Shown piece after piece: positions 2,505-23,595 of a stretch of 24,098 nucleotides of DNA; within the stretch, counting starts at the first letter, position 1; each line of letters starts with the position of its first letter. The notes below the pieces were generated by a model. It was not told the DNA's origin. It worked only from the letters and a program-made list of their open reading frames with translations, and did not search any database. The translations under genes and the position numbers were made by a program. The stretch lies in IMG/VR virus record IMGVR_UViG_3300036832_001629, positions 1 through 24,098 of that record; one strand, written 5' to 3'. Origin of the DNA: a virus.

Positions 2505-3086
2505 TCAGAGAAGCCATGCCCATGACTCGCGATTGAGGATGCGGTGCGTCTGGGTGACGCCAACCCCAAACCGAAAGGCGATTTGCCTTCGAGGTATTAT
2601 CCCATCCAGCTTTCGCATTTTACGGATAATCGCAGAAGTCAGTTTTGTGCTGGTTCGATTGCGCTTAACAGCATCAATCAGATTGCGCTGTTGCGTGATC
2701 CATTTCAGATGCCGTGGCGCAATACACGGACGATTGTCACACGTGTGAGCAGCAACATGCCCTGGTGAAGGCGGCGGACCATGAACTGCTTCGCAGACAA
2801 TGCTCGAAGCGGTGCGCATTGTTCCTCGCGAATGAACGTTGCCATAGCCGCCGCTGCTTTTGGAAAACGGCCACAGCAGGCACGTGTTAGACTTGTGCTT
2901 GAGCGCCACATCGAAAATAAACTTCATCGCCTCGCCATTAGCGATGCGGTATCTGACCAACGGGTCGCCGTACTTCACAAATCGATGATAGTGTGTGGAA
3001 CAGTAGTCGTAGCCACCATGTGAGCCAACAATGTTGCGGCAATCATTGACGGCGCACTTACGACGTGTTGATAGACGGGGAGCCAT
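2505..3086 (-). CDS. HNH homing endonuclease with N-terminal zinc finger (193 aa)
   Basis: Three parts are visible. Residues 11-32 form a small zinc finger (C11, C16, C29, H32) ending in the HYHRFVKYGDP signature seen in phage HNH enzymes. Residues about 108-140 hold the HNH core, with AAHTCDNRPCIAPRHL (H114, C116, C121, H126) and N135. Residues about 148-188 form a helix-turn-helix (AFRFGVGVTQTHRILN) for DNA binding. These enzymes nick or cut DNA and promote their own spread. The start at 3086 has a strong GTAGGAGG. Base composition is clearly more A/T-rich than the capsid genes on either side, which fits recent acquisition of a free-standing homing gene. Confidence 0.9.
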   Translation of the reverse strand: MAPRLSTRRKCAVNDCRNIVGSHGGYDYCSTHYHRFVKYGDPLVRYRIANGEAMKFIFDVALKHKSNTCLLWPFSKSSGGYGNVHSRGTMRTASSIVCEAVHGPPPSPGHVAAHTCDNRPCIAPRHLKWITQQRNLIDAVKRNRTSTKLTSAIIRKMRKLDGIIPRRQIAFRFGVGVTQTHRILNRESWAWLL

Positions 3087-3112
3087 GGTCGCCTCCTACG
3101 CGATCGTGGTTA

Positions 3113-3149
3113 GGGGAATCGAACGGCGCTACAACGCTGTTCATTCCCC
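3113..3149 (-). other. Long hairpin between capsid and HNH genes
   Basis: The arms 3113-3128 and 3135-3149 pair over about 15 bp with one bulged base and one G-U, closing a six-base loop. There is no T-run on the minus strand, so it is not a classical intrinsic terminator. Lying 35 bases past the capsid stop and 27 before the HNH start, it could protect the 3' end of capsid mRNA or limit read-through. Alternatively, it may be part of the inserted HNH unit. Confidence 0.6.
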
Positions 3150-3183
3150 GCCTATATACCCCATCTAAACTATTGTCAAACCA

Positions 3184-20587: not shown

Positions 20588-20820
20588 CCAGAAAGATAGA
20601 AGCGCCCGAGCTGCTCGGCGCGCTGTTGTGGCTGCGCAATCAGTACGATGTCGGCAGCGTACCGCCCGCGCGAAGCCAGGTGTACACCGCGGATCACAAG
20701 CGCATGGTGCTGGCGGTCATCGACGCGGTGCTGCAAGCCGACGGTACCGAGATCAATTTCAAAGGCTTCCGCGAGGATTTTCTTCCGTCGCTCAAAGTCA
20801 TCCCCTACGAGGACATGTAA
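20584..20820 (+). CDS. Small soluble protein, unknown (78 aa)
   Basis: ATG 20584 lies in an ATGA overlap with AAGAAGGAACC upstream; the longer frame to 20512 is rejected. The chain (PELLGALLWLRNQYDVGSVPPARSQ, HKRMVLAVIDAVLQADGTEINF) is a helical protein with no known motif. A terminator follows its stop codon immediately. Confidence 0.8.
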   Translation: MTRKIEAPELLGALLWLRNQYDVGSVPPARSQVYTADHKRMVLAVIDAVLQADGTEINFKGFREDFLPSLKVIPYEDM

Positions 20821-20851
20821 AAAACCCGCCGGCGGCATTCTCCGGCGGGTT
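20819..20851. terminator. Bidirectional terminator
   Basis: AACCCGCCGG (20823-20832) pairs perfectly with CCGGCGGGTT (20842-20851). A run of six A on the left gives a strong T-run for the minus strand, ending the 20879 gene. On the plus strand the T-run is short (TTGCT), but the 10-bp G/C-rich stem abuts the 20820 stop. Confidence 0.8.
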
Positions 20852-21147: not shown

Positions 21148-21175
21148 TTGCATTTTCTGAAGAACCCACTATTTT
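21148..21175 (+). promoter_or_regulatory. Possible promoter for the rightward unit after 21.2 kb
   Basis: TTGCAT (21148-21153) and TATTTT (21170-21175) are 16 bases apart in a locally A/T-rich gap between divergent genes. A TTGACA at 21134 has no matching -10. Weak by eye. Confidence 0.3.
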
Positions 21176-21242
21176 AGCACTGTCGGTGGCGCCCAGCCCC
21201 GACTTTCGACCGGATGCTCTGCACCGAGAAAGGTCCGCCAAA

Positions 21243-21443: not shown

Positions 21444-21480
21444 GCTAGGCGCCAGCCGTTCCCTACGGCGAGCGTCTCGG

Positions 21481-21521
21481 AGAGCGGCTCAATAGCGCCC
21501 CTATCCCTCACGGGCCGCTCT
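21481..21521. repeat. Inverted repeat after the Rmf-like gene
   Basis: AGAGCGGC (21481-21488) and GCCGCTCT (21514-21521) pair over 8 bp with a 25-base loop. No real T-run follows, so terminator function is doubtful. Confidence 0.5.
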
Positions 21522-21545
21522 TCACATTCATCCCCCACGAGGTAG

Positions 21546-21628
21546 TTCGACCAGCCGTCCCGCTCGGGACCAAATAAAACGCCTGTCGGTCAGCAGTGAG
21601 TCCGGCGAGACGGGACGGTTGATCGAAC
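21546..21628 (+). ncRNA. Large structured element ahead of the leader-sharing genes
   Basis: Arms 21546-21563 and 21611-21628 pair over 18 positions with one G-U and one mismatch. The stem can continue inward as CTCG/CGAG and GGAC/GTCC with small bulges, around an A-rich loop (CCAAATAAAAC). It ends 20 bases before the ATG at 21649. It could be a structured 5' leader, a small RNA or a DNA cruciform site; only the folding potential is seen. Confidence 0.6.
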
Positions 21629-21648
21629 CACCCAACGGAGACCACCCA

Positions 21649-21912
21649 ATGAACCTCTTGGAAATCAAACGCGCGTTGCGTGCCGGTCCGTACGCTTGGC
21701 CCGGCGGCTATCCCCTCTTTTTCCTCACGGCCGAAGGCGCCGCGCTATCGTTCGAGGCGGCGCGGAAGGAATGGCGGAACATCGTCGCCACCCACCTGCG
21801 TCGGGACACGCGGTCCGGCTGGTTCATCATCGCCACCCACGTGAATTGGGAAAACACCGAACTGGTTTGCGAGCACTCGGGCAAACCCATCGAAAGCGCC
21901 TACGGCGATTGA
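21649..21912 (+). CDS. Unknown small protein (87 aa)
   Basis: ATG 21649 follows GGAGACCACCCA, the first of the shared leaders. The protein (LEIKRALRAGPYAWPGGYPLFF, RSGWFIIATHVNWENTELVCEHSGKPIES) is small and mixed alpha/beta, with a single HxxxxxxxxLxCEHSGK patch. I do not recognise it. It opens the leader-sharing gene series, immediately after the large hairpin. Confidence 0.8.
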   Translation: MNLLEIKRALRAGPYAWPGGYPLFFLTAEGAALSFEAARKEWRNIVATHLRRDTRSGWFIIATHVNWENTELVCEHSGKPIESAYGD

Positions 21913-21941: not shown

Positions 21942-22370
21942 ATGACCGAAATCACCGACCTCAGCAGACTCTACGAAATGGCGCGAATCCTTCGCGAAGC
22001 ACCCGGCAACGAGCAGCTCGCAAACGTGAGCCTGCACGACATCGCGAAGATCATCTTCGACCAGATCGTCAGCAAGAAAGAAAACCCAATGACCGACGGC
22101 GACTTCCCGCCACTCAAACCCGCAGAGGTCGCGTTGCGCCGCAATCTGTTCAACCGCATGGCCGAGGGCGGCACATGGGACATCCCGCGATCTGGCCTGA
22201 TCTTCCACAAGCTCGACGGCGCTCTCGTGCTCATGACGCAGATGCCATGGAACAAAGACATGCCGATCAGCCGCAAGCAATTTGAAGAACAGCAACGCCA
22301 CGAATTCGAAGCCACCCGTCGGCACTTCGGCGCCGCCGGGATTCCAGTCATCAAGAATAACTTCACCTGA
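21942..22370 (+). CDS. Unknown protein, possibly two fused small genes (142 aa)
   Basis: ATG 21942 follows GAAAGACACCCA. Residues 1-49 (ITDLSRLYEMARILREAPGNEQ ... LHDIAKIIFDQIVSKKENP) are helical. Residue 50 is an in-frame ATG (22089) with its own AGAAAGAAAACCCA leader, and residues 50-142 form a second unit (PPLKPAEVALRRNLFNRMAEGG ... FHKLDGALVLMTQM ... RHEFEATRRHFGAAG). No stop separates them. Either one gene with an internal start or two genes joined by loss of a stop. Function unknown. Confidence 0.75.
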   Translation: MTEITDLSRLYEMARILREAPGNEQLANVSLHDIAKIIFDQIVSKKENPMTDGDFPPLKPAEVALRRNLFNRMAEGGTWDIPRSGLIFHKLDGALVLMTQMPWNKDMPISRKQFEEQQRHEFEATRRHFGAAGIPVIKNNFT

Positions 22371-23202: not shown

Positions 23203-23595
23203 ATGACGAAAAGAACCAATCCATTTCCCAGATTAGCCGAACCGCGCGACCGTTTGCGAGCAGCACATATCGCACGTGGCATAGCACCCTTGCCGGAAAC
23301 CTTGGAGGGGTGGGACGCAGCACGAGACGCCGCGCGAGCAAAAAGAAGCGCGCGCAGTAAAGCAGCGCGCGCAGTAAAGCAGCGCGGGCAAAACGCAAAG
23401 CACAGCCGCGATGACCGACGACAAAAAACCGGTGGTCGTGATCAAGCGCTTCAAAGCCGCCGTGTACTGGTACGGCACCGTCGACGGCAAGCTGATCGGA
23501 CCAAAGCATTACAAGCACGAGATCGACGAGCTTCTGAATCTGGAACAATGGCGCGAAGTCCAGCGACAGCTCGCAGCGAGGAAGAAAGCCAATGA
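23203..23595 (+). pseudogene. Small basic gene frameshifted by a 17-bp duplication
   Basis: ATG 23203 follows CGAAAGGCACACCCAA. The first 48 codons (MTKRTNPFPRLAEPRDRLRA ... LEGWDAARDAARAKR) look genuine. A perfect 17-bp tandem duplication (23349-23382) then shifts the frame, and the open frame now runs on across the next gene to 23595. Removing one copy restores a 64-residue Lys/Arg/Ala-rich protein that ends RKAQPR with a TGA overlapping the next ATG, the normal junction here. Function unknown; the tail would suit nucleic-acid binding. Confidence 0.6.
23349..23382. repeat. 17-bp perfect tandem duplication
   Basis: The unit CGCGCGCAGTAAAGCAG occurs at 23349-23365 and 23366-23382. Because 17 is not a multiple of three it changes the reading frame. 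Confidence 0.95.

Follow-up and report, generated by a model that had tools for sequence, protein, structure and literature searches.

A covarying hairpin with a near-invariant core between early genes of an uncultured tailed phage

Comparison of three related phage contigs supports a conserved structured element between early genes, a long hairpin whose stem covaries beneath a near-invariant core and whose function we infer. We put the probability at about 0.5 that this is a structured element under selection, most likely an RNA that belongs to the rightward early transcript and would act in cis on the whole early operon.

The window, that is, the whole stretch of DNA analysed, covers 24 kb as a linear fragment from an uncultured virus. 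The virus is a tailed phage, and its terminase and portal genes lie on the minus strand. From about 21.2 kb of the window, small genes run rightward on the plus strand. The hairpin lies inside the 205-base gap that separates the ORFs flanking it, and the features of this region are as follows.

21148 to 21175, plus strand: promoter-like TTGCAT-16-TATTTT, proposed by eye, with counterparts in related contigs L087, L088, L093 and L094
21243 to 21443, plus strand: ORF upstream of the element and first early ORF, with an alternative longer start at 21186
21541 to 21632, plus strand: whole hairpin element, 92 nt with 33 base pairs, delimited from its fold, homologs and pair counts
21545 to 21562, plus strand: 5' arm, variable covarying stem (alignment, pair counts)
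21563 to 21610, plus strand: near-invariant apical core, CTCGGGACCAAATAAAACGCCTGTCGG(T/C)C(A/T)GCAGTGAGTCCGGCGAGA, from comparison with L094 and L087
21611 to 21628, plus strand: 3' arm, variable covarying stem (alignment, pair counts)
21637 to 21640, plus strand: GGAG resembling a ribosome-binding site (RBS), just beyond the stem
21649 to 21912, plus strand: downstream gene in the window, 87 aa, from a widespread family and not beside the element in L087 or L094
22089 to 22370, plus strand: 93-aa early gene, which follows the element directly in L087 and lies about 2.5 kb downstream of it in L094

The arms pair over 18 positions, with one G-U pair and one C-A mismatch. Inward of them follow eight pairs (CTCG/CGAG and GGAC/GTCC, with GG and A bulges), two pairs more and a 3-pair tip, while GGT/ACC extends the stem outward to the limits of the element. 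Re-deriving the fold from the sequence thus confirmed the hairpin described in the initial annotation, including its arms, wobble pair, mismatch and eight inward pairs; the coordinates were accurate, except that the start was one base off and the short outward extension had been missed. The element has a minimum free energy of -48.0 kcal/mol (z -5.7), a stability reached by none of 200 dinucleotide shuffles. This energy is not exceptional in a GC-rich window where the stretch 3076-3180 scores z -6.1; the hairpin is notable because it is conserved.

Inspection of both strands found no T-run after the hairpin. The pairing had been said to go far beyond the needs of a terminator and to lack a T-run, and both points are right. 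An intrinsic terminator, recognised as a GC-rich hairpin followed by a T-run, was therefore rejected, and the terminator scan did not report one here either.

Terminase searches of IMG/VR yielded nine close relatives, with accessions all between 3300036779 and 3300036846, and the place in question was readable in six contigs including the window. Three of these six carry the element: the window, L087 (5256-5349, minus strand; terminase identity 93%) and L094 (3753-3847, minus strand; 68%), and all three copies come from IMG/VR contigs within that accession range. A covariance-model search of 17 whole records recovered one copy apiece from the three carriers and nothing from the remaining 14 records. 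The same copies matched more weakly on the opposite strand because the element is palindromic. L086, L088 and L093 lack it at the matching place. The clearest empty site is that of L093, which shares the flanks CACTGATCGGT(G/A)TC and CCGGCAATCCCGCCGGAT with L094 and is missing the hairpin between them. In L094 (3754-3900), the element falls within or just past the tail of a short coding sequence (QPSA..EAAALIG), whose reading continues in L093 without the element.

In a model-fitted alignment of the three sequences, every copy has all 33 pairs in standard form and eight pairs show two-sided changes, compared with 0 or 1 in controls with the register slid. A plain MAFFT alignment, which is blind to structure, still gave four such pairs. 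One pair, for example, reads G-C, A-U and C-G in the window, L087 and L094, respectively. Conserved and covarying pairing in relatives was the test proposed in the initial annotation itself, and across these three sequences the hairpin passed it. The A and GG bulges persist in the copies, as does the outer C-A mismatch, which is U-A in L094 only. The arms have therefore been neither homogenised to a perfect palindrome nor simply copied from each other.

The core and the stem differ sharply in conservation. Between the window and L094, 46 of the 48 core bases are identical, compared with 27 of 44 in the stem and 74% of the terminase gene DNA; between the window and L087, the core is identical at 47 of 48 bases. 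Our main argument, drawn from three sequences, is that the simplest reading of this pattern would be selection on the sequence of the core and only on the pairing of the stem, because, had the whole element been transferred recently, stem and core would be equally similar.

The element might instead have no present function and be a mobile or chance palindrome with arms kept complementary by template-switch repair. Its presence or absence as a unit, as in L094 versus L093, would fit such an origin, and template switching is able to mimic compensatory changes. However, it would not hold a 48-nt core at 96% identity while the stem is at 61%, and it would erase the bulges and outer mismatch that were kept. 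There is also only one copy per phage, and the covariance model found none in 783 sampled genomes (398 and 385, taken from the order and class to which a Hyphomicrobiales genome belongs), a set that had no positive control, the host being unproven. We consider this origin highly improbable. A dispersed palindromic mobile element of the MITE or REP-like kind was rejected because of the single copy per contig, the variable ends around a conserved core and the same lack of copies in the sampled genomes.

Searches for a known identity yielded no match to Rfam 15 at the gathering threshold anywhere in the window. The best relaxed matches were to microRNA hairpin models (26 bits, with 80 needed), which we dismissed as generic long hairpins. 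A tRNA search was negative, and phage and plasmid records held no match to the element. An exact scan of viral contigs for the left arm gave two matches, in L084 and L085, of 18-20 bases and without a hairpin. Seven matches to a degenerate core in a species-genome collection all proved to be chance on inspection, and a 33-base match on a Bradyrhizobium plasmid had neither a hairpin nor a match to the model. From these searches, we regard the element as a new, narrowly distributed candidate RNA motif that is listed in no catalogue yet. Structured-RNA motifs have come from comparative surveys of bacteria and metagenomes (for example PMC2864571). Such motifs typically have a variable, covarying stem beneath a conserved core and a function unknown at discovery. 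The element resembles them in its covarying stem and conserved core, but it has only three members and no Rfam family match.

We next considered the position of the element relative to its neighbouring genes. It had been called a leader; intercistronic is the better term, since a plus-strand ORF (without a Pfam or PHROG match) and the promoter-like sequence lie upstream. The promoter-like consensus across the window, L087 and L094, drawn by eye, is TTGCA(T/A)-16/17-TAT(T/C)T, and it precedes the element by about 360, 230 and 520 bases, respectively. Consensus promoter scans did not flag it, and none of them found an early promoter.

No two carriers share the gene next downstream, which is the 87-aa gene in the window, a 364-aa gene with no Pfam match in L094 and, in L087, a homolog of the window gene at 22089. 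This bears on whether the element is a leader regulating translation of the next gene, either as a riboswitch or bound by a protein. Its frozen core does resemble a ligand pocket. In the window, the 3' arm ends 20 bases ahead of the ATG at 21649, the distance first reported, and the full stem ends 4 bases ahead of the GGAG and 16 ahead of that ATG. In L094, however, the base of the stem is 41 bases from the start codon, and the RBS is not within the stem. With a different gene following in all three carriers, a dedicated riboswitch is distinctly unlikely. Nothing found here directly supports the initial suggestion that the hairpin senses a phage or host factor, and the differing downstream genes speak against a gene-specific sensor; the part of that interpretation that stood is the structured, conserved element itself, through its covariation. 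That the element stays close to the beginning of the early operon, with different genes around it, favours an operon-level or independent role.

The 87-aa gene belongs to a family widespread in phages (of Caulobacter, Brevundimonas and others), and its PHROG label and some records read 'DNA ligase', a doubtful label for so small a protein. The element was found near none of its homologs. Among homologs of the 364-aa gene, it occurred nowhere but in L094's own contig. The 93-aa gene is present in all three carriers and clear in no other record searched, with one weak match in the contig of L093, in a small sample of fragmentary contigs. Its AlphaFold model is confident (mean pLDDT 86), and the predicted fold gave no informative structural match. 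A peptide encoded by the core was not apparent either, as no frame in the plus direction is open and kept across the three copies.

Early genes on the plus strand flank the element on either side in all three carriers, on the same strand. We prefer the plus strand only because the genes before and after the element have that direction; in each of the three copies, the reverse complement has a slightly more stable fold, and the evidence from G-U versus C-A is balanced between strands. Since neither fold nor wobble pairs settle the strand, and each contig has a single copy, the structure could operate in DNA, as an extruded or single-stranded hairpin in replication start or recombination. This appears quite improbable given three relatives that lack the element and no replication or recombination gene identified next to it. 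The stable fold of the minus strand would also suit a trans-acting small RNA from either strand, processed from or made at the locus, as would a compact structure independent of the neighbouring gene. Promoter and terminator scans, however, found neither a promoter nor a terminator of its own, and we rate a small RNA as very improbable.

Under our preferred reading, an RNA acting in cis, the variable stem of about 20 pairs would present the fixed 48-nt core to a partner. The core would consist of two short helices with GG and A bulges, an A-rich strand, the 3-pair tip and a GCAGUGA strand, and its action would extend to the whole early operon rather than to a single gene. The likeliest single mechanism, which we propose tentatively, may be modification of RNA polymerase through put-like antitermination or anti-pausing. 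The next likeliest would be that it recruits an RNA-binding protein of the phage or the host.

To our knowledge, RNA elements that control a whole phage operon via their own transcript have rarely been described, and put of phage HK022 is the model. HK022 put, a processive antiterminator, spans about 70 nt in two adjacent stem-loops and exists in two copies, putL and putR, one per early operon (PMC9378689). Located about 270 nt from the start site, putR counters pausing and termination and needs no dedicated protein to do so, and antitermination by put works via the zinc-binding domain of the RNA polymerase beta' subunit (PMC9378689). Like put, the element is structured, of a similar scale (about 70-90 nt) and not tied to the next gene, and it lies in a tailed phage's early region, here with a promoter-like sequence a few hundred bases upstream. 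Unlike put, it is one 92-nt stem-loop in place of two, with one copy per contig (the contigs being fragments) and unrelated hairpins upstream. As the likeness is in position and scale and not in fold, the element may work like put, and we do not file it as put.

The R sites in the early region of phage T7 are RNase III sites, long irregular hairpins between early genes. The element is likewise a long irregular duplex between early genes, optional among relatives and tied to no single gene, as might be expected if RNase III cut the duplex, or if the duplex shielded the downstream message, in mRNA processing or stability. However, the enzyme needs duplex, whereas here the duplex sequence is free and it is the apical core, dispensable for RNase III, that is conserved. 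Such a role is unlikely.

A further proposal, rather doubtful at present, is that the element represents a new class of phage RNA, in which one long stem-loop carrying a 48-nt core would modify RNA polymerase or the early message operon-wide without a dedicated protein, as an optional module in some members of a group of related phages. If confirmed, a compact core on a freely replaceable stem, carried by some near relatives and missing from others, could point to a target in the host RNA polymerase or another host factor. Even with a humbler function, the element would be a new covariation-supported structured motif of uncultured phages.

Two further hairpins lie just upstream, the first listed corresponding to a second inverted repeat that had already been reported there.

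21479 to 21523, plus strand: hairpin I, pairing 21479-21490 with 21512-21523, nearly identical in L086 and L087
21447 to 21477, plus strand: hairpin 0, weaker and imperfect, just ahead of hairpin I, with counterparts in L086 and L087

Similar hairpins occur in L088, among them one (GGAGCGGCTC/GAGCCGCTCC) that resembles hairpin I. Of these relatives, L086 and L088 lack the large hairpin. Two-sided changes in 21447-21523 were not seen among the relatives compared.

Other repeats were observed elsewhere in the window. At 3079-3150, two tandem near-perfect hairpins (z -6.1) lie about one base apart at the start of an HNH endonuclease ORF (2505-3086, minus strand, PF13392). Two adjacent stem-loops are the geometry of put; around them, only a 40-base stretch matches one relative. 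Directly past a plus-strand ORF ending at 20820, a perfect 10-bp inverted repeat (AACCCGCCGG/CCGGCGGGTT, 20823-20851) is terminator-like, with no T-run. Within the early region, a 17-base unit (AAAGAAGCGCGCGCAGT) is repeated in tandem at 23342-23375.
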